Shown here piece by piece: positions 8,767 through 34,112 of a stretch of 34,579 nucleotides of DNA. This DNA is from Acidobacteriaceae bacterium. GTDB taxonomy: Bacteria; Acidobacteriota; Terriglobia; Terriglobales; Acidobacteriaceae. Below the pieces are notes generated by a model. It was not told the DNA's origin. It worked only from the letters and a program-made list of their open reading frames with translations, and ran no database searches. A program made the translations under genes and the position numbers. The stretch is taken from positions 2,335 to 36,913 of the forward strand of contig PLBW01000150.1 of assembly GCA_003135475.1 (NCBI GenBank), written 5' to 3'. The stretch's first letter is position 1, and every line of letters starts with the position of its first letter.

Positions 8767-9792
8767 TCAGAACGTTGTCAGCGCTGTCCCGGGCTCACGC
8801 CACGTATACGACCCGAGCGTCTTGAGGTAATTCCCGCGGAGGAATGCCGCCGGGCTCTCGATGTTTACCAGGCTCATGCTGCCCCGCATCTGCTTCACCG
8901 AGACATACTCGTGTTCCTCCATCCAGCTCTCCATGCCAGCCAGCACCACGCCGATGTGCTCGATGCCGTACTTCAGCAGCGCCGATGTCATCATGGCCAC
9001 GTGCGCACCCGCCATCATGGACTTCAGCACATCGCTGGCGTCGTGTACGCCGCCGGTGATGGCGATGTAGGTCTCGACCTGGTGATACAGAATGGCGGCC
9101 CAGTGGAGACGGAGACGCAGCTCATGCGGGCTGCTCAGGACCAGGTTTGGTACTACCTCCATCTCCTCCAGGTCGAAGTCGGGCTGATAGAAGCGATTGA
9201 AGATCACCACGCCGTCGGCGCCGGCTTCCGATAAGCGCTTGGCAAAGTTGGCGCACGAGGTGAAGTACGGCCCCAACTTCACCGAGATGGGGATGTGCAC
9301 CTGTTTACGAATGGCGCGCACCAGGTCGCAATAGCGGTCTTCCAGCGCCGCCGCATTGACCGATGGATCGCTGGGAATGTCGAAGATGTTCAACTCCAGG
9401 GCGTCGGCGCCCGCCTGCTCCATGTACTCGGAGTAGCGCACCCATCCCCCCGGTGAGCTGCCATTCAGGCTGGCGATGACCGGAATGCTCACTGCGGCTT
9501 TGCCTTTGCGCAGCAACTCCAGATAGCGATCGGGGCCGACATGATACTTCTGCATGTCAGGCAGATAGGAGATGGCCTCGGCGTAGCTGTTGGCGCCGTA
9601 CTCCAGCGCGCTGTCGATGTTCTCGCTCTCCGCCTCGATCTGTTCCTCGAACAACGAGTACATCACGATGGCCGAGGCCCCGGCGTCTTCCATACGGGGG
9701 AAGTTCTCCAGCTTCTCCGTCAGCGGCGAGGCCGATACTACGACCGGATTCTTCAGCTTCAATCCCAGATAATTTGTTGAAAGGTCGATCAC
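8767..9792 (-). CDS. Dihydroorotate dehydrogenase-like flavoprotein (PyrD/PreA family)
   Basis: A 341-residue FMN-binding TIM-barrel protein. Start GTG 9792, with GAGGAG about 9 nt upstream. Visible motifs are the N-terminal 'LKNPVVVSASPLTEK', 'ALELNIFDIPSD', 'PISVKLGPYFTS' (barrel Lys), 'GADGVVIFNRFYQPDFD' and the phosphate-binding-type 'ITGGVHDASDVLKSMMAGA'. It belongs to the DHOD-like group often found beside nifJ rather than among pyrimidine genes. It follows nifJ on the same strand by 18 bases, so the two are almost certainly co-transcribed. Inference: an electron-transfer or NAD(P)H/ferredoxin-linked role in pyruvate oxidation is more likely than de novo pyrimidine synthesis. The true substrate is unknown. 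Confidence 0.87.
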   Translation of the reverse strand: MIDLSTNYLGLKLKNPVVVSASPLTEKLENFPRMEDAGASAIVMYSLFEEQIEAESENIDSALEYGANSYAEAISYLPDMQKYHVGPDRYLELLRKGKAAVSIPVIASLNGSSPGGWVRYSEYMEQAGADALELNIFDIPSDPSVNAAALEDRYCDLVRAIRKQVHIPISVKLGPYFTSCANFAKRLSEAGADGVVIFNRFYQPDFDLEEMEVVPNLVLSSPHELRLRLHWAAILYHQVETYIAITGGVHDASDVLKSMMAGAHVAMMTSALLKYGIEHIGVVLAGMESWMEEHEYVSVKQMRGSMSLVNIESPAAFLRGNYLKTLGSYTWREPGTALTTF

Positions 9793-9810: not shown

Positions 9811-12800
9811 TTACGGTTTCTCAAAGTTCATCGCGGCCATGTGCTGGTACAGCTTCCAGCGCTCGTTGACGTTTTCCTGCGCCTGCTTCAGCAGCTTCTT
9901 GGCCTCTTCCGGATCGCTGTTGACCAGCATGGTGTAGCGCGTCTCGTTGTAGATGTATTTCTCCAGCGGGATGCTGGGGGCGCGCGAATCCAGCACAAAC
10001 GGATTCTTGCCTTCCTTGGCGAGCCCGGGGTTATAGCGGAACAGCGGCCAGTGTCCGGAGTTCACCGCCGCCTTCTGCTGCTCGATGCCGTACACCATGT
10101 CGTAGCCGTGCGCGATGCAGTGGCAATAGGCGATGATGATGGACGGCCCATCGTGCGCCTCCGCTTCCATGAATGCCTTCATCGTCTGCGTGTCGTTTCC
10201 ACCCATGGCGACATGGGCTACGTAGGCCCGGCCATAATTCATCGCCATCATGGCGATGTCTTTCTTGGGAGTGCGCTTGCCGCCGGCGGCAAACTTGGCC
10301 ACCGCGCCCAGCGGCGTGGCCTTCGACATCTGCCCGCCGGTATTGGAGTACACCTCGGTGTCGAGCAGCAGGATGTTGACGTTTGCGGTCGAGGCCAGCA
10401 CATGGTCGAGGCCGCCGTAACCGATGTCGTAGCCCCATCCATCGCCGCCGACGATCCACACGCTCTTCTTGACCAGCTCGTCGGCAACTGCCAGCAGGTC
10501 GCGCGCCGCCGGACTGGTGTCCTTCGCCAGCTTCTCTTTCAACGCCTTCACCCGTTCGCGCTGCGCGAAGATGCCTTCCTCGGTGGACTGATCGGCGGAA
10601 AGAATCTCAACCGCCAGTTGTTCGCCGATGCTCGATGCCAGGCACTCGACCAGCTCCTTGCCATACTGGTTCTGCTTGTCGATGGCCAGACGCATGCCCA
10701 TGCCAAATTCAGCATTGTCCTCAAACAGCGAGTTCGACCAGGCCGGGCCGCGACCCTCGGAGTTCACGCTGTAGGGCGTTGTCGGCAGGTTGCCACCGTA
10801 GATGGACGAGCAGCCGGTCGCGTTGGCGATCATCGCGCGGTCGCCGAACAGCCGGGTCATCAGCGAAATGTAGGGCGTTTCGCCGCAACCGGCGCAGGCG
10901 CCCGAGAACTCAAACAGCGGCTGCAACAGTTGCTGGTCTTTCACCTGACCGTGCGAGAGCTTCTCGCGCGAGAACTCGGGAATCTGCTGGAAGTACTCCC
11001 AGTACTGGTTATATTTCTCGCGCAGCGGCGGCTGCGCTTCCATGTTGATGGCCTTGTGCTTGGCTTCGCTCTTGCTCTTGGCCGGGCAGACCGCGACGCA
11101 AAGCCCGCAGCCGGTGCAATCCTCCGGTGCGACTTGCAAGGTGTATTTCAGTTCGGAGAACTCGCGCCACTTGGGAACTGCTGTCTGGAAGCCCTCGGGC
11201 GCGTGGTTGATGCTGCTGGCGTCGTAGATCTTGGCGCGAATGACCGAGTGCGGGCAAACCATGACGCACTTGCCGCACTGGATACAAAGCTCTTCATCCC
11301 AAACCGGAATTTCCAGCGCGATGTTACGCTTCTCCCACTGCGTGGTACCTGTGGGGAACGTGCCGTCGATGGGCATCGCACTGACCGGAACCTCATCGCC
11401 ATCCCCGGTGATCATCAGCGCCTCGACGTTGCGCACAAAGTCGGGAGCGTTCGCCGGAACCGACGGACGCATATCGAACTTCGAGCTGATCGAGTCCGGG
11501 ACCTTGACTTGATATAGGTGCTCCAGCGATGAGTCAACCGCGGCAAAGTTCTTGCGCACGACGGATTCGCCACGCTTGCCGTAGGTCTTCTCGATGGAGT
11601 GCTTGATGGCGGCAATGGCTTCGTCGCGCGGCAGCACGCCGCTGATGGCGAAGAAGCAGGTCTGCATGACGGTGTTGATGCGGCCGCCCATGCCGGCGGC
11701 GCGCGCCACTTCCACCGCGTCGATCACGTAGAAGCGCAGCTTCTTGCGGATGATCGCCTGCTGCGCCGAGCGCGGCAGGTTGTCCCACACCTCGTCGGGA
11801 CCGAACGGGCTGTTGAGCAGGAAGACCGCGCCGGGATCGGCCGCCTTGAGCACATCCAGGCGCTCCATGAAGCTGAACTGGTGGCAGCCCACGAAATTGG
11901 CGCGCGAGATCAGGTAGGTGGAGTGGATCGGTTGCTTGCTGAAACGCAGGTGCGAAATGGTGACCGCGCCCGACTTCTTGGAGTCGTAAACGAAGTAGCC
12001 CTGCACGTTCAGGTCGGTCTCTTCGCCAATGATCTTGATGCTGTTCTTGTTCGCGCCCACGGTGCCGTCGGCCCCCAGCCCGTAGAACATGGCGCGGACC
12101 GTCTCCGGCGCTTCGCTAGAGAACGCCGGATCGTAGGTCAAGCTGGTGTGGGTGACATCGTCGTTGATGCCGATGGTGAAGTGGTTCTGCGGATTGGGCT
12201 TCTTCAGCTCGTCGAAAATCCGCGCCACCATCGCCGGCGTGAACTCTTTCGACGACAACCCATAGCGGCCGCCGATCACCTTGGGGAACGTAGCCATCGG
12301 GGCCTTGCCCGCGGTGAAACCCTCGGTCAGCGCAGTGATGATGTCTTGATACAGCGGCTCACCAATGCTGCCTGGTTCCTTGGTGCGGTCCAGTACGGCG
12401 ATGCTCTTCACCGTCGGAGGCAACGCTTGCAGGAAGTGCTCGACGGAGAAGGGCCGCATCAGGCGCACTTTCAGCACGCCAACTTTGCGGCCTTGCGCGG
12501 TCAGATAGTCCACCGTCTCCTGCACCGCTTCGGCGCCCGAGCCCATGACGATGATGACCTGCTCGGCGTCCGCTGCGCCTTCGTACTGGAATAGCCGGTA
12601 TTCTCGGCCGACGATCCGGGCGAATTTGTCCATCGTGTTCTGCACGATGGTGGGACAGGCCAGATAGTAAGGATTCACCGATTCGCGGCCCTGGAAATAA
12701 ACGTCAGGGTTCTGCGCCGAGCCGCGCAACACCGGATGATCGGGCGAGAGCGCGCGCTGGCGGTGAGCGCGCACCAGATCGTCGTCAATCATGGCGCGCA

Positions 12801-13491
12801 TATCGTCCAGGCTCAATTGTTCGATCTTGGAAACTTCATGCGAGGTGCGAAAGCCGTCGAAGAAATGCAGGAAGGGAATGCGCGACTCCAGGGTCGCGGC
12901 GTGCGCGATCAGCGCCAGGTCCATCGCCTCCTGCACCGAGTTCGACGACAGCAGGGCGAATCCGGTTTGGCGAGTGGCCATGGCATCCGAGTGATCGCCG
13001 AAGATGGACAGCGCCTGCGCGGCGATGGACCTTGCCGCCACGTGAATCACCGTCGCGGTCAGTTCGCCTGCGATCTTGTACATGTTGGGGATCATCAGCA
13101 GCAGGCCCTGCGACGAGGTGAATGTAGTGCCGAGCGCGCCCGCCTGCAATGCGCCGTGCAACGCGCCGGCGGCGCCACCTTCGCTCTGCATCTCGATAAC
13201 GTTGGGGATGGTTCCCCAGATGTTCTTTTCGCCAATCGAGGACCACGCGTCCGACGACTCGCCCATGGGCGACGACGGCGTAATGGGATAAATGGCGGCG
13301 ATTTCGCTGACGTGGTAGGCCACGTAGGCGACGGCCTCGTTGCCGTCAAGGGTCACTTTGCTTCTCGACCCTTTCCCCTTAACAAGCTCCTTGTCCTCGG
13401 GCGAAGGTTCCGCGGTATTGGTTCCACCGCGTGCCTGGGCAGTGTTGGCGTCATTGATGGTCGCGGCAGCAGAGTATTCAGTTGTTTTCAC
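9811..13491 (-). CDS. nifJ: Pyruvate:ferredoxin (flavodoxin) oxidoreductase
   Basis: A 1226-residue single-chain PFOR, full length for the family. It oxidises pyruvate with CoA to acetyl-CoA and CO2 and reduces ferredoxin or flavodoxin, in the cytoplasm. Domain order: pyrimidine-binding domain I ('YPITPSSPMGE', about residue 70), gamma/EKR domains, a 2x[4Fe-4S] ferredoxin domain (C736-IQCGKCVMVCP; C792-TGCGLCVAVCP), proximal-cluster cysteines ('ACAGCGE', about 865) and the TPP/Mg domain ('GDGWGYDIGYGG', about 1013). Start GTG 13491 has GGGGGA upstream. About 45 residues precede the usual N-terminus, so GTG 13356 (V46) is an alternative start. It leads a two-gene unit with the DHOD-like gene and is divergent from a tetraheme cytochrome. 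PFOR is oxygen-sensitive, which points to anaerobic or micro-oxic pyruvate metabolism. Confidence 0.97.
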   Translation of the reverse strand: MKTTEYSAAATINDANTAQARGGTNTAEPSPEDKELVKGKGSRSKVTLDGNEAVAYVAYHVSEIAAIYPITPSSPMGESSDAWSSIGEKNIWGTIPNVIEMQSEGGAAGALHGALQAGALGTTFTSSQGLLLMIPNMYKIAGELTATVIHVAARSIAAQALSIFGDHSDAMATRQTGFALLSSNSVQEAMDLALIAHAATLESRIPFLHFFDGFRTSHEVSKIEQLSLDDMRAMIDDDLVRAHRQRALSPDHPVLRGSAQNPDVYFQGRESVNPYYLACPTIVQNTMDKFARIVGREYRLFQYEGAADAEQVIIVMGSGAEAVQETVDYLTAQGRKVGVLKVRLMRPFSVEHFLQALPPTVKSIAVLDRTKEPGSIGEPLYQDIITALTEGFTAGKAPMATFPKVIGGRYGLSSKEFTPAMVARIFDELKKPNPQNHFTIGINDDVTHTSLTYDPAFSSEAPETVRAMFYGLGADGTVGANKNSIKIIGEETDLNVQGYFVYDSKKSGAVTISHLRFSKQPIHSTYLISRANFVGCHQFSFMERLDVLKAADPGAVFLLNSPFGPDEVWDNLPRSAQQAIIRKKLRFYVIDAVEVARAAGMGGRINTVMQTCFFAISGVLPRDEAIAAIKHSIEKTYGKRGESVVRKNFAAVDSSLEHLYQVKVPDSISSKFDMRPSVPANAPDFVRNVEALMITGDGDEVPVSAMPIDGTFPTGTTQWEKRNIALEIPVWDEELCIQCGKCVMVCPHSVIRAKIYDASSINHAPEGFQTAVPKWREFSELKYTLQVAPEDCTGCGLCVAVCPAKSKSEAKHKAINMEAQPPLREKYNQYWEYFQQIPEFSREKLSHGQVKDQQLLQPLFEFSGACAGCGETPYISLMTRLFGDRAMIANATGCSSIYGGNLPTTPYSVNSEGRGPAWSNSLFEDNAEFGMGMRLAIDKQNQYGKELVECLASSIGEQLAVEILSADQSTEEGIFAQRERVKALKEKLAKDTSPAARDLLAVADELVKKSVWIVGGDGWGYDIGYGGLDHVLASTANVNILLLDTEVYSNTGGQMSKATPLGAVAKFAAGGKRTPKKDIAMMAMNYGRAYVAHVAMGGNDTQTMKAFMEAEAHDGPSIIIAYCHCIAHGYDMVYGIEQQKAAVNSGHWPLFRYNPGLAKEGKNPFVLDSRAPSIPLEKYIYNETRYTMLVNSDPEEAKKLLKQAQENVNERWKLYQHMAAMNFEKP

Positions 13492-13607
13492 GTCGATTTT
13501 ATCCCCCAGACCGGCTCATGCGCGCGGTCTGTCTGTGCTCAAGAATCCGCTACTGTTCAAGATAGCGGGCGGGGTGAAAGGGGGCAGTGATGGGGCACTA
13601 ACCAGTC

Positions 13608-13623
13608 TGTGACCGCCGTCACA
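13608..13623. promoter_or_regulatory. CRP/FNR-family operator-like palindrome
   Basis: TGTGACCGCCGTCACA matches the CRP-type pattern TGTGA-N6-TCACA exactly and is fully symmetric in its arms. It lies between nifJ (start 13491, minus) and the cytochrome (start 13786, plus). If the minus-strand hexamer TATCTT (13564-13559) is the nifJ -10, the site would be centred near -63. The regulator is inferred from the motif only. Confidence 0.55.
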
Positions 13624-13683
13624 TACAGGTGTTTGCCGCTGTGGAGTGAAAACAGCGTGATTTCCACCGTAGTCACACTCCCA

Positions 13684-13726
13684 TGACGCTGCCGTCACAG
13701 CAGCGGGGACGGTGTCGGCCTAGAAT
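13684..13726 (+). promoter_or_regulatory. Candidate promoter and palindromic activator site for the cytochrome gene
   Basis: A -10-like TAGAAT (13721-13726) would place transcription initiation near 13733. The perfect palindrome TGACGCTGCCGTCA (13684-13697) is then centred about -42, the usual place for a class II CRP/FNR-type activator. No convincing -35 is seen, which would fit an activator-dependent promoter. The half-site spacing differs from the palindrome at 13608-13623, so the same protein need not bind both. Confidence 0.4.
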
Positions 13727-13785
13727 GCAGAGTGCTGAAGTGTGCCGCGATCCCTTGCCAGCGGCGCTGCCATTTTGGAGGCATC

Positions 13786-14187
13786 GTGAAAGCTCCCAAC
13801 CTGTTAATCCTACTTGGATCTCCAATCCTTCTCATGCTATGTGGCAGCGCGCTCGCCCAGACCGCTCCGACGAGCCCCATCCTTCTGAAGGGCGCTCCCA
13901 TGGGTGCAGTGAAGTTCGATCACACGCCACACGTGAAAGTAGCCGGCAAATGCGAAATTTGCCATCACGTATCCAAGCCGGAGAAGCCGCTGAAGGCCCC
14001 GCAACAGGCTTGTACCGATTGCCACACCAACCCCGCCACTCCGCCGGTTACCACCAAGTTGCAGGCGGCCTTCCACAACCCCACCGCAACCGCCGGACTC
14101 TGCATTGGTTGCCATAAGACACAAAACAGTCAGGGCAGGGCCGCGCCGGTGAAATGTGCGGATTGCCACAAAAAGATCAACGCCTAA
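13786..14187 (+). CDS. Periplasmic tetraheme c-type cytochrome (class III/c7-like)
   Basis: A 133-residue exported cytochrome. Start GTG 13786, chosen because GGAGG lies about 6 nt upstream and the signal peptide then begins correctly; the frame is open from 13732. Residues 1-24 form a Sec signal (Lys2, hydrophobic core, SALA cleavage before Q25). The mature part has four CxxCH haem sites: C56-EI-C59-H60, C76-TD-C79-H80, C106-IG-C109-H110 and C124-AD-C127-H128. Additional His residues (H46, H49, H61, H97) could be distal ligands. Small class III/c7 cytochromes shuttle low-potential electrons in the periplasm. Its position divergent from nifJ with CRP/FNR-like sites between them suggests shared redox control, which is inference. 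Confidence 0.9.
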   Translation: MKAPNLLILLGSPILLMLCGSALAQTAPTSPILLKGAPMGAVKFDHTPHVKVAGKCEICHHVSKPEKPLKAPQQACTDCHTNPATPPVTTKLQAAFHNPTATAGLCIGCHKTQNSQGRAAPVKCADCHKKINA

Positions 14188-15258: not shown

Positions 15259-15362
15259 TTGTCCTCCCGAAGCTCCTATCACGTCCCTACGTGAGTCCGG
15301 TCACACCGCGCGGCGTCAAAATGTGTTAAATGTAGCGACGTGGTAGGCGTGCGTTCCCACGC

Positions 15363-16910
15363 ATGCTCTATAAGACACTTAGCGCCGCCGTGTACGGCAT
15401 CGACGCCAGCCTCATCGAGGTTGAGGTCGATGTCGCGGCGATCAAGGCCGAGCACGACACGTTCATGACCGTCGGGCTGCCTGACACCACGGTGCGCGAA
15501 AGCCGCGAGCGCATCCGGGCGGCGCTGAAGAACAGCGGCTACGATATTCCATCCACCACCACCACCATCAATCTGGCTCCTGCCGACATTCGCAAAGAAG
15601 GATCGGGATTCGATCTTCCCATGGCCTTGGGCATCCTCGGCGCTTATGGAGGCTTGAACAATAAGCCGCCGGACGACACGCTTTTTGTCGGCGAGTTGTC
15701 GCTCGACGGCGGAGTGCGAGGCATCCGGGGAGCCCTGCCCATTGCGGTAACCGCGCGGGCAAACAAAATCCGCCGGCTTATCGTTCCCGAGATCAATGCG
15801 CGCGAGGCCGCCCTGGTGGAAGGCGTTGATGTTTATCCGGTGCACTCGTTGATCGAAGTGGTCCAGCTTCTGAATACCGGCAACGGCATCCTTCCGATCA
15901 AGGTTGACACCCACGCCCTGCTGGAGACTTCACAGCAATTTGGAGTTGATTTCGGCGACGTGCGGGGACAGCAGACGGCCAAACGGGCCATCGAGATCGC
16001 CGCGGCAGGAGGCCACAACCTGCTGATGATTGGTCCGCCGGGTTCGGGCAAGACCATGCTTGCCAAACGCATGGCCACCATCCTTCCGCCCCTGACGTTT
16101 GACGAAGCCCTGGAGACAACCAAGATTCACAGCGTGGCCGGAGTTCTGGATTCGACCAGCGGATTGGTGGGGACGCGTCCCTTCCGGTCCCCACACCACA
16201 CCATCTCGGATGCAGGGCTGATTGGCGGTGGCATGATTCCGCGCCCCGGCGAGGTGTCGCTGGCCCACAACGGAGTGCTGTTCCTGGATGAGTTGCCGGA
16301 GTTCCCGCGTAACGTCCTCGAGGTGATGCGGCAGCCGCTGGAAGACGGGACCGTCACCATCGCGCGCGCCGCCATGTCGCTCAGCTTTCCGGCGCGTTTC
16401 ATGCTAGTCGCGGCCATGAATCCCTGTCCGTGCGGATATTTCAACGATCGCTCGCGCGAGTGCCACTGCACGCCGATGATTATCCAGCGCTATGTGTCGA
16501 AGATTTCCGGCCCGCTGCTGGACCGCATCGACATCCACATTGACGTGCCTTCGGTGAATTATCGCGAGCTGAGGGGCGGCGTTATGCCGGAGAGCTCGGC
16601 CGACATCCGCGCCCGCGTGATTCGCGCCCGCGATACGCAATTGGTGCGCTTCGGTAGCGAGGGCGAACGTATTTATGCCAATGCGCAGATGGGCTCGCGT
16701 GAGATCAGGAAATACTGCGAGTTGGGTACGGACTCCGAGCACCTGCTGGAACGGGCCATGGCGAAGCAGGGGCTCAGCGCGCGCGCCCATGACCGCATTC
16801 TCAAGGTCGCGCGCACGGTGGCAGACCTCAGCGCCGCCGAAACCATTGAACCGGGCCACATTGCGGAAGCAATCCAGTACCGGACGCTGGATCGCACGTT
16901 CTGGGCATAA
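15363..16910 (+). CDS. comM: YifB/ComM-family Mg-chelatase-like AAA+ ATPase
   Basis: 515 residues, the normal length for the family. An N-terminal Lon-protease-like fold domain (about 1-170, with '[21 protein letters not shown]' split by '[18 protein letters not shown]') precedes a ChlI-type AAA+ module with Walker A GPPGSGKT (224-231), Walker B LFLDE (306-310) and a cysteine-rich insertion 'NPCPCGY...ECHC'. The C-terminal Mg-chelatase domain ends with 'YRTLDR'. Family knowledge: ComM is a hexameric branch-migration helicase that helps integrate DNA during natural transformation. Start ATG 15363 has no clear Shine-Dalgarno. No other competence gene is adjacent; cca follows on the same strand after 174 bases. 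Confidence 0.94.
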
Positions 16911-31459: not shown

Positions 31460-31927
31460 ATGTTGAAGCTGACCAAGAAGGCAGATTACGGACTGATTGC
31501 CATGCGGCATCTCGCCGAGCACGCCGACTTGGGAGCGTGTAGCGCCAAGGACCTGGCCGAGATGTACAGCATGCCGCAGGAAGCGCTGGCGAAGATTCTG
31601 CAGCGGTTGACCAAGGCTGGCTTGCTGGTATCGCAGTACGGCACAAATGGCGGCTACACTCTGGCCCGCAACCCGCGGCAGATTAGCGCCTTTGAAGTAA
31701 TCCGGGCGATTGATGGACCGTTGTTTATTACCTCGTGCAGCTCGGCAACCGAAGATTGCGACCAGAGTGACCGCTGCACGGTGCGCGAACCGCTGCGCAA
31801 GGTGAGCCGCAGCATCGAAGAAGTTTTGAACCGGCTAACGATTTGGGAGATGACCGAGCCGGAGCACGAATCCGCGCCGGAACTGGTTACCTTGGGCTGG
31901 ACGCCAAACAAGATTGAACACGTTTAG
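31460..31927 (+). CDS. iscR: Rrf2-family Fe-S regulator IscR
   Basis: 155 residues. An N-terminal winged helix ('LTKKADYGLIAMRHLAEHA', then the wing 'VSQYGTNGGYTLARNP') is followed by a dimerisation helix and three cysteines C93, C100 and C106 (spacing C-x6-C-x5-C) that would ligate a [2Fe-2S] cluster; E. coli IscR has C-x5-C-x5-C. As first gene of the isc operon it probably senses cluster sufficiency and represses the operon. A palindrome overlaps its predicted transcription start. iscS follows after three bases, so translation may be coupled. Confidence 0.93.
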   Translation: MLKLTKKADYGLIAMRHLAEHADLGACSAKDLAEMYSMPQEALAKILQRLTKAGLLVSQYGTNGGYTLARNPRQISAFEVIRAIDGPLFITSCSSATEDCDQSDRCTVREPLRKVSRSIEEVLNRLTIWEMTEPEHESAPELVTLGWTPNKIEHV

Positions 31928-31930
31928 GAG

Positions 31931-33205
31931 ATGGCACAAGCAATGAGCACGAATGTGATTTCGGGCAATGGGAACAACGACGTGAAACTGCCTATCTACA
32001 TGGACAACCATGCCACGACGCGCACCGATCCGCGCGTGGTGGAAGAGATGCTGCCGTACTTCACCGAGAAGTTTGGCAATGCCGCCAGCCGCAACCACGA
32101 ATTCGGCTGGGTGGCCGAACAAGCCGTGGAGCAGGCACGTGAGCGCATCGCCAAGCTGATTGGCGCCACCTCCAAGGAAATTATCTTCACGTCGGGCGCG
32201 ACCGAGAGCAACAACCTTGCCATCAAGGGCGTCGCCGAGATGTACAAGGAAAAAGGCAATCACATCATCACCCAGGCCATCGAACACAAGGCGGTGCTCG
32301 ACACCTGCAAGCGCCTGGAGAAGTACGGTTTTCGGGTCACGTATTTGCCGGTGCAGAAAGACGGCCGCATCGATCTTGACGATCTGAAGCGGGCGATGGA
32401 CGAAAAGACCATCCTGGTGACGATCATGACCGCCAACAACGAGATTGGCGCGTTGCAGCCGATCCGGGAAATCGGCGCTCTTTGTCACGAACGCGGCGTG
32501 TTGTTTCACACCGATGCGGTGCAGGCGATTGGCAAGGTTCCTTTCAACGTTATCCAGGACAACGTGGACCTGGCGTCGCTCACGGCCCACAAGCTCTACG
32601 GCCCCAAGGGCGTTGGCGGGTTGTACGTCCGGCGCAAGAACCCGCGGGTTCAACTGGTGGCGCAAATTGATGGCGGCGGGCATGAGCGTGGCATGCGCTC
32701 GGGCACGCTGAACGTTCCGGGAATCGTAGGCTTTGGCAAGGCGTGCGCGCTGGCGAGCGAAGGCATGGCCGAAGAAGCGGTTAAGCTCGCCGCTTTGCGC
32801 GATCGCTTGAAGGACGCCATCATGGGCCAGCTCGACGAGGTTTACATCAACGGCTCGGTGGAGCATCGTCTGCCCGGCAACTTGAATATCAGTTTTGCCT
32901 ACGTGGAAGGCGAGTCGCTGCTGATGGGCATTAACGATATTGCCGTTTCCAGCGGTTCGGCGTGCACCTCGGCGACGCTGGAGCCATCTTATGTATTGAA
33001 GGCGCTGGGCGCTGGCGATGACCTGGCTCACAGCTCCATCCGGTTTGGCATTGGGCGGTTTAACACGCAGGCCGAAGTCGATTATGTGGCCGAGCGTGTG
33101 ATCGATACGGTGAAGCGGTTGCGTGAATTGTCGCCGTTGTACGAGATGGCGAAAGAGGGAATTGATTTAACCAAGGTGCAATGGGCGGCCGAGCCGACGC
33201 ATTAA
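31931..33205 (+). CDS. iscS: Cysteine desulfurase IscS
   Basis: Up to 424 residues. A PLP-dependent group I desulfurase that removes sulfur from cysteine for Fe-S assembly. Visible: '[20 protein letters not shown]' at the N-terminus, '[15 protein letters not shown]', PLP-lysine K221 ('[11 protein letters not shown]'), '[20 protein letters not shown]', and catalytic C345 in the mobile loop '[17 protein letters not shown]' (group I type). AGGAG abuts the first ATG (31931), so ATG 31943 (codon 5) may be the real start; codons before 'LPIYMDNH' form a non-conserved leader of about 20 residues. It lies between iscR and iscU in a standard isc order. Confidence 0.97.
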
Positions 33206-33242
33206 TTCGCGACAAGAAAGTTTGGAATTGAGGAGATAACGC

Positions 33243-33674
33243 ATGGCTTACAGTGACAAGGTTTTGGACCACTATTCGAATCCCCGTAACGTGGGTTCGC
33301 TCGACAAGAACAGCACCGAGGTGGGTACCGGTTTGGTGGGTGCACCCGAATGCGGCGACGTCATGAAGCTGCAGATCAAGGTGAATCCCGCGACCAACAT
33401 CATCGAAGACGCCAAGTTCAAAACGTTCGGGTGCGGCTCGGCGATTGCATCGTCTTCGCTGGCCACCGAATGGGTGAAGGGCAAGACCGTGGACGAAGCC
33501 CTCACGATCCGGAACACGGACATCGTGAAGGAGCTGTCGCTGCCTCCAGTGAAGATCCACTGTTCGGTGCTGGCGGAAGACGCAATTCGCGCCGCCATCG
33601 GCGACTGGAAGAAGAAAAATGGACAGCACAGCCAGCCCCAGCCCCAAGCCCAGCCGGTCGAACAGCGGGCGTAA
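33243..33674 (+). CDS. iscU: Fe-S cluster scaffold IscU
   Basis: 143 residues. Scaffold on which [2Fe-2S] clusters are built from IscS-derived sulfur. Ligands C37 (with D39 in 'PECGD'), C64 ('FGCGSAIASSS') and C107 ('KIHCSVLAEDA', with H106) are all present. The LPPVK peptide (100-104) recognised by the HscA chaperone is intact, consistent with hscB downstream. The C-terminus carries an extra Gln/Pro-rich tail ('QPQPQAQP'). GAGGAG is 7 nt upstream of ATG 33243. Confidence 0.97.
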   Translation: MAYSDKVLDHYSNPRNVGSLDKNSTEVGTGLVGAPECGDVMKLQIKVNPATNIIEDAKFKTFGCGSAIASSSLATEWVKGKTVDEALTIRNTDIVKELSLPPVKIHCSVLAEDAIRAAIGDWKKKNGQHSQPQPQAQPVEQRA

Positions 33675-33731
33675 ACTGGTTTTGAGGGCCGGGGTGCCGC
33701 ATCTCTCGATCAGGCGCACCGGAACACAACC

Positions 33732-34112
33732 ATGAGCACGGTCAACATTGAAAATCCGGTCCAGGCGCCCGCCCCCGCTGCCAAAGGCATTCAGGTGACG
33801 GACAAGGCGCTGGCCCGCATTCGCTTGGCGATGGCAAAGGAAAACATTTCGCCGACCGAGGGCGGACTGCGTCTGGGCGTGCAGGGTGGCGGTTGTTCGG
33901 GACTGAGTTATAACATCCGTTTCGACACGCAGCCGCGCGAACGCGATCGCGTCTTTCAGTTCGAAGACGTTCGCGTCTTTGTCGATCCGAAGTCGTTCAT
34001 TTACCTGCACGGCATGGTTCTCGATTACGAAGAGACCCTGATGCACCAGGGCTTCGCCTTTCAGAACCCGAATGCGAAGAAGTCCTGCGGCTGCGGTACT
34101 TCGTTTTCCTAA
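33732..34112 (+). CDS. iscA: A-type Fe-S carrier IscA
   Basis: 126 residues of the HesB/IscA/SufA family. The three conserved cysteines are C55 ('GGGCSGLSY'), C119 and C121 ('SCGCGTSFS'). An N-terminal leader of about 20 Ala/Pro-rich residues precedes the conserved start ('IQVTDKALARIRLAM'). It carries Fe or assembled clusters to targets, downstream of IscU. Located 57 bases after iscU in the same operon; no strong ribosome binding site is visible. Confidence 0.95.
   Translation: MSTVNIENPVQAPAPAAKGIQVTDKALARIRLAMAKENISPTEGGLRLGVQGGGCSGLSYNIRFDTQPRERDRVFQFEDVRVFVDPKSFIYLHGMVLDYEETLMHQGFAFQNPNAKKSCGCGTSFS

Follow-up and report, generated by a model that had tools for sequence, protein, structure and literature searches.

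Organization of the divergent locus

The window, by which we mean the whole 34,579-nt stretch of DNA analysed here, is part of a 3.89-Mb genome (G000) that is 82% complete. It contains a short control region from which two genes diverge, one encoding a pyruvate:ferredoxin oxidoreductase (PFOR) and the other a four-haem cytochrome. The features discussed below are as follows; all distances to transcription starts refer to predicted starts, which lie at about 13552 (minus strand) for PFOR and about 13733 (plus strand) for the cytochrome.

8767-9792, minus strand: dihydroorotate-dehydrogenase-like protein (Pfam DHO_dh), 18 bp after PFOR
9811-13491, minus strand: PFOR, nifJ type, GTG start (NCBIfam TIGR02176, 1837 bits, cut-off 911)
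13492-13785: control region, 294 bp, between the GTG starts of PFOR (minus) and the cytochrome (plus)
13559-13564, minus strand: predicted PFOR -10 box, TATCTT (TATNNT at offset 43-45 in five genus loci)
13586-13590, minus strand: putative PFOR proximal half-site, at about -41.5 and 22 bp from site 1; it reads TCACT here and TCACA in four further members of the genus
13608-13623: site 1, predicted CRP-type operator TGTGACCGCCGTCACA, a full palindrome at about -63.5 from the predicted PFOR start
13673-13677, plus strand: putative TCACA half-site, the upstream one of two for the cytochrome, at about -63.5; the next TCACA follows 22 bp on
13684-13699, plus strand: site 2, reframed as a degenerate CRP-type 16-mer, TGACGCTGCCGTCACA, with an intact proximal half TCACA (13695-13699), at about -41.5
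13721-13726, plus strand: predicted cytochrome -10 box, TAGAAT (TAGAAT or TAGGAT in six of six genus members)
13786-14187, plus strand: small class III type cytochrome c, 133 residues, GTG start, four CXXCH motifs (Pfam Cytochrom_CIII, 1e-16)

The PFOR carries the Pfam domains POR_N, POR, EKR, PFOR_II and TPP_enzyme_C. The DHO_dh gene that follows it, an orthologue of which occurs in eight of the nine genus genomes, is probably co-transcribed with it. The cytochrome has a likely signal peptide and is predicted to be periplasmic; its nearest NCBIfam model is TmcA, with a score below the cut-off, and the closest cytochromes found among named relatives belong to uncultured Acidobacteriaceae labelled palsa and bog. 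Between site 1 and the PFOR start, in the predicted PFOR leader, a perfect 7-bp inverted repeat (CAGACCG/CGGTCTG, 13507-13531) has arms conserved throughout the five genus members aligned.

Is the pairing of these two genes a general one? PFOR was present in 60 genomes of our 150-genome sample, 41 of these 60 being of the same family; of 398 same-family genomes, 18 were found to have the cytochrome. Within the genus, the two genes lie on separate contigs in G005, and in G001 no intact cytochrome stands beside PFOR, a partial and interrupted match being located elsewhere. Because the two genes differ so much in distribution and are apart in two genus genomes, we regard their pairing as local.

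A conserved, predicted operator upstream of PFOR

The first-pass annotation of this DNA had described TGTGACCGCCGTCACA as an exact fit to the CRP-type consensus, and this was borne out: the sequence is the sole exact match to TGTGACN4GTCACA in the genome, and with up to one mismatch this motif occurs at 31 places, as against one for the reversed control. Both of the sites originally described, 75 bp apart as defined there, lie between the two genes in G000, G002, G003, G006 and G008. In G001 and G005, whose PFOR has no intact cytochrome gene next to it, a perfect TGTGA-N6-TCACA with changed inner bases is found at the same place before PFOR, and site 2 is absent upstream of PFOR. Since PFOR loci without an adjacent cytochrome retain site 1 and are without site 2, site 1 belongs to PFOR.

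This association extends across the family. Of the 41 same-family PFOR loci, one was dropped from the count, having only 156 nt of upstream sequence, and TGTGA-N6-TCACA was exact at 27 of the 40 testable loci, matched at nine of ten positions at 11, and at eight and seven positions at one locus each; G023 and G087 are the two testable loci without a good site. At the 19 PFOR loci of other families there was no exact match and there were two at nine of ten. The exact motif occurred at PFOR loci only with the 6-bp spacer; spacers of 2-5 or 7-12 bp gave zero exact matches. On this comparative evidence, the view that site 1 is a real operator appears well supported.

The sequence beyond site 1 was compared at 35 family loci, namely the 38 same-family loci with a site minus G002, G006 and G008, which are near-identical to G000; G023 and G087, which lack a good site, were likewise not part of the set. 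A [TC]ATNNT box at offsets 43-45 past site 1 was counted 16 times (shuffle 99th percentile, 3 per single offset). GTGA at offset 7, that is, 22 bp on from the first GTGA, was present at 15 of the 35 loci (shuffle 99th percentile, 3), and TCACA at offset 18 at four (shuffle 99th percentile, 2). The predicted arrangement at PFOR would thus consist of site 1 at about -63.5 and a half-site at -41.5, the same positions as those predicted for the cytochrome promoter.

An alternative would give the two sites opposite roles, site 1 repressing PFOR (in air, for instance) and site 2 activating the cytochrome. Repression by CRP/FNR proteins is possible, as proposed for HcpR at sat and apsAB (PMC545781), and the PFOR start is a predicted one. 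However, the -10-like boxes found 43-45 nt beyond site 1 place the site upstream of the promoter rather than over it, and we consider repression through site 1 rather improbable.

The cytochrome promoter

Site 2 had been presented as a second palindrome, TGACGCTGCCGTCA at 13684-13697, centred about -42 from a start based on TAGAAT. The position stood up and the palindrome did not. As an independent palindrome, TGACGNNNNCGTCA was rejected: it is not kept in G005 or in other genera, and its genomic copies (10 places, against two for the control) are mostly intragenic, eight of the ten lying within called genes. The conserved unit is instead TGACGCTGCCGTCACA, whose TCACA half ends 21 nt before TAGAAT. 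If TAGAAT is a -10 box spanning -12 to -7, TGACGCTGCCGTCACA would be centred at -41.5, in the class II position. Taken as a motif alone, TGACGCTGCCGTCACA is weak, ranking 37 of 34564 window positions with the score matrix, so that site 2 is singled out only by its fixed distance to the -10 box.

That distance is conserved. TCACA followed after 21-22 nt by TAnnnT was found in all six genus members with an intact cytochrome, including G005, and in the same six the upstream TCACA (13673-13677) keeps an unchanged spacing, even in G005, where the flanks have otherwise diverged. To compare other genera, we used 12 cytochrome loci, leaving out six from the same genus and three that are long and multi-domain (L021, L022 and L185). 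The element with TCACA was present in four of the 12 (G011, G023, G029 and G062), or in five if TCAC[AG] is allowed (G106 has TCACG with an equal gap), where shuffled sequences gave means of 0.04 and 0.10, respectively. It was absent from the other seven, which comprise G070, G186 and all five g72 loci.

Promoters activated by Escherichia coli CRP fall into classes I, II and III, with a 16-bp core site read by a RETVxR helix and bound at -41.5 or about -61.5. On the predicted starts, a centre near -41.5, which characterizes class II, is found for both the cytochrome site and the PFOR proximal half-site. The earlier proposal that a CRP/FNR-family regulator governs both genes is therefore sustained on each side, site 1 being kept at PFOR loci of the family and the cytochrome half-site in four or five other genera. 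A search of the orthologous regions, in which absence of the motif would have spoken against regulation, found the motif present and left the regulatory reading standing.

Further CRP-like sequences lie nearby. At 15290-15305, about 60 nt before a ComM/YifB-type gene at 15363, there is a second CRP-like site, CGTGAGTCCGGTCACA, and both G008 and G006 have a palindrome resembling it (GTGACCGGACTCAC or GTGACCGAACTCAC) close to their cytochrome locus.

Genome-wide distribution of the motif

The exact form TGTGAN6TCACA occurs 19 times in the genome, against one in the control. Of the 31 near-matches to TGTGACN4GTCACA, 29 lie between called genes (binomial 2e-16 for a non-coding fraction of 0.236); the genes were called with a simple home-made codon-based caller, and called genes make up about 76% of the window.

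We then asked whether the promoter geometry recurs at the other sites of this genome. For this we used 33 sites with 66 flanks, excluding the window's own site, a site at the edge of a contig (L162) and two intragenic ones (L041 and L056). Thirteen flanks had TAnnnT at a distance of 21-23 nt, where shuffling gave a mean of 1.5 and no more than 6 in any of 1000 shuffles; GTGA 22 bp on occurred at 10 (shuffle mean 0.3, maximum 3). Ten of the 13 TAnnnT flanks face a called gene that lies fewer than 500 nt away, and three do not. Two of the 13 hits, L007 and L048, have an apparently identical site and flank, which may be a real repeat or an assembly duplicate. The enrichment of the -41.5/-63.5 pattern at other sites indicates that activator positions are common, and from this geometry we infer that the sites activate transcription.

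The first-pass annotation had suggested looking for the same motif at other redox genes. Domain searches identified NuoC, NuoB, an SdhC-like protein, CcmE and HemL among the genes adjoining sites, together with an ETF:quinone oxidoreductase, a CcsA-type assembly protein, a FAD-binding reductase, a nitrate-reductase-gamma-like protein, a class III CoA-transferase and, 450 nt from a predicted site, a KorA-type 2-oxoacid oxidoreductase. Another neighbour, of 701 residues, joins a multihaem cytochrome to cytochrome b561 in one protein. The predicted targets include nuoB/C, sdhC, ccmE and hemL, but some neighbours are non-redox genes (anthranilate synthase, acetylornithine aminotransferase, RNase R and a DapA-like protein), and two that were queried, L038 and L002, gave no family match in the domain search. 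The predicted network seems to govern energy metabolism across the whole bacterial family.

The core of this motif is also that of another regulator, the NADH-sensing repressor Rex, whose consensus is TTGTGA-N6-TCACAA and for which PFOR and fermentation genes are plausible targets. Rex regulons resemble the present one in operator core and in PFOR-like targets. However, the sites here lack the flanking T/A and stand at activator positions, and the Rex N-terminal domain PF06971, which was matched in seven of 14 control genomes, had no match in G000 at its 82% completeness. We rejected Rex as the regulator on the latter ground and regard it as very improbable that the sites are its operators.

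A candidate regulator

Of 12 matches to the cNMP-binding family in G000, 10 were above the cut-off. Our candidate among them is G000:C96:5981-6703, which has two close paralogues (C18 and C173); all three carry a recognition helix RETVTR or RETVSR. The candidate combines a cNMP-binding fold with a Crp-type helix-turn-helix (PF00027, PF13545 and PF00325). In an alignment of 24 relatives, C13, C16, C25 and C64 are invariant, as are R202-E203-T204-V205-R207.

Several observations connect this type of regulator with the motif. First, in G014, PFOR and the regulator orthologue are divergent with two exact sites between them, and in G001 the orthologue stands beside PFOR with one exact site. Second, among the matches listed, an exact motif lies within 6 kb of a regulator relative eight times in 23 genomes, against 0.45 expected; these 23 are the genomes with both site and regulator positions, and regulator matches were listed down to about 1e-65. 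Third, the number of motifs per genome falls with regulator similarity class (4.31, 2.24, 0.67 and 0.29; 150 genomes, Spearman 0.71), a correlation that partly reflects shared ancestry. Eleven of the 51 genomes without a regulator match at 1e-25 still carry the motif.

After the C96 gene in G000 comes one for a shorter cNMP-domain protein that lacks a helix-turn-helix (L074:6820-7296), and after that a site and the multihaem cytochrome genes. A similar pair of regulator and shorter protein is found beside PFOR in G001 (L060). The shorter protein might act with the regulator as a partner, or serve as its decoy.

Another CRP-like protein, G000:C168:40179-40889 (L023), is encoded on the same contig as the window, next to a gene for iron-sulphur repair (ScdA/RIC); nitrosative stress may be what it responds to. 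The sites could serve this protein instead: its helix VRELVSR also fits R-E-x-x-x-R, and a near-motif, CGTGACAGAAGTCATA, occurs between its gene and the ScdA gene, this stretch (L023:1393-2962) lying slightly more than 3 kb past the window end. In G000, the only genome covered for it, we found no PFOR neighbour or site link for this protein, whereas the C96 type adjoins PFOR in two genomes and lies near exact motifs in eight. We therefore consider it unlikely that the L023 protein is the regulator in question. At 31460-34112 the window itself also holds the gene for an Rrf2/IscR-like regulator and, after it, IscS-, IscU- and IscA-like genes; these names were assigned by inspecting the translations.

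What might the C96 regulator sense? If it were a cAMP-dependent CRP, the switch would report carbon or energy supply and not oxygen. The motif is identical to the E. coli CRP core, and CRP is a near neighbour of the regulator both in NCBIfam (6e-21) and among PDB sequences. Against this, when the aligned stretch of the regulators is considered in the light of residue roles in the cAMP pocket, the pocket arginine is absent and an FNR-like LGLSATVSGKPYE stretch occupies the aligned pocket, and the cysteines are conserved. A cAMP-dependent switch accordingly seems to us an improbable explanation. As for the cysteines, they are spaced C-x2-C-x8-C, against C-x2-C-x5-C in FNR, and most family members have a cysteine in alignment with FNR C122, which is missing in G021, G009 and some others. 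Because of these losses, an Fe-S cluster is only a candidate feature of the regulator. The AlphaFold model (mean pLDDT 52, residues 1-156 below 50) was too poor for the clustering of the cysteines to be judged from it.

Comparison with known systems

The closest described precedent that we found for an energy regulon with a CRP consensus, likened by description and not by sequence, is HcpR, a CRP/FNR-family protein of delta-proteobacteria and others whose energy-metabolism regulons were predicted by comparative genomics (PMC545781). In that account, the HcpR sites share with ours the E. coli CRP consensus, target genes for energy metabolism, ferredoxin and cytochromes, and, in some cases, activator positions; in contrast, the core HcpR targets are hcp, frdX and sulphate reduction (PMC545781), and the predicted ones here are PFOR, Nuo, Sdh and cytochrome c maturation. 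Among the titles and abstract openings searched for Acidobacteriota CRP/FNR regulons and for the PFOR/tetrahaem arrangement in Acidobacteria, we found no description of such a regulon.

In relation to E. coli CRP itself, the 16-bp core, the RETVxR helix and the positions -41.5 and about -61.5 are alike, whereas the cysteine-rich N-terminus, the missing cAMP-pocket arginine and the 22-bp tandem half-sites are particular to the system found here. The likeness to FNR of E. coli and Aliivibrio fischeri (PDB 5cvr and 5e44) lies in the sensing part of the protein, with N-terminal cysteines, the C122-aligned cysteine in most members and an FNR-like stretch replacing the cAMP pocket; the FNR residues were compared with the PDB chains. 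FNR recognizes TTGAT-N4-ATCAA through a V-E-x-x-S-R helix; the FNR helix is VETISR and that of our candidate RETVTR, hence TGTGA and not TTGAT. By this recognition test the regulator is not FNR, and its sensing may be FNR-like.

Proposed mechanism and implications

Taken as a whole, the evidence is best explained, with a probability that we put at roughly 70%, if the region is a divergent control region for a global activator of the CRP/FNR type, which would read TGTGA-N6-TCACA. PFOR would be driven by the full site at about -63.5 together with the half-site at -41.5; at the cytochrome, half-sites would occupy both positions, about -41.5 and about -63.5. The paired elements are 22 bp apart, or two helical turns, so that two dimers probably bind next to each other in contact with RNA polymerase. 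As the protein, the likeliest candidate is that encoded at G000:C96:5981-6703, or else either of the two closely related paralogues with the RETVTR/RETVSR helix; its signal is probably oxygen or redox state, perceived via the conserved cysteines, rather than cAMP. Such a regulator would raise PFOR, respiratory-chain and cytochrome-making genes together. The sites, their conservation and spacing, their intergenic placement throughout the genome and their link to the regulator gene are matters of direct comparison; activation, the identity of the regulator and its redox signal are what we infer.

The product of PFOR is reduced ferredoxin, formed in the cytoplasm, and the first-pass annotation had proposed that electrons derived from pyruvate are disposed of to the periplasm through the cytochrome. 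As stated, such a direct path was not supported: the comparison gives co-regulation only, and the pairing of the genes is local. Because the predicted regulon includes Nuo, a FAD-binding reductase, a multihaem cytochrome b and cytochrome c maturation, electron disposal of this kind is nevertheless a reasonable, unproven possibility, with which co-regulation of PFOR, Nuo, the multihaem cytochrome b and the small cytochrome would fit.

A broader proposal, which we advance tentatively and hold to be possible rather than probable, is that this regulator represents an undescribed CRP/FNR lineage, in which a cysteine-based, FNR-like oxygen or redox sensor is combined with a CRP-type reading head. 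In a large family of Acidobacteriota it would be the master switch for anaerobic conditions, working through TGTGA pairs 22 bp apart (-41.5/-63.5) and tying ferredoxin-linked pyruvate oxidation to the respiratory chain and to multihaem cytochromes in the periplasm. Acidobacteriota are common in soils and peats that alternate between air and no air, and the predicted operator, the candidate proteins and some 30 candidate promoters make an oxygen or redox response in these organisms directly testable. The motif should also be usable for annotating many uncultured genomes.
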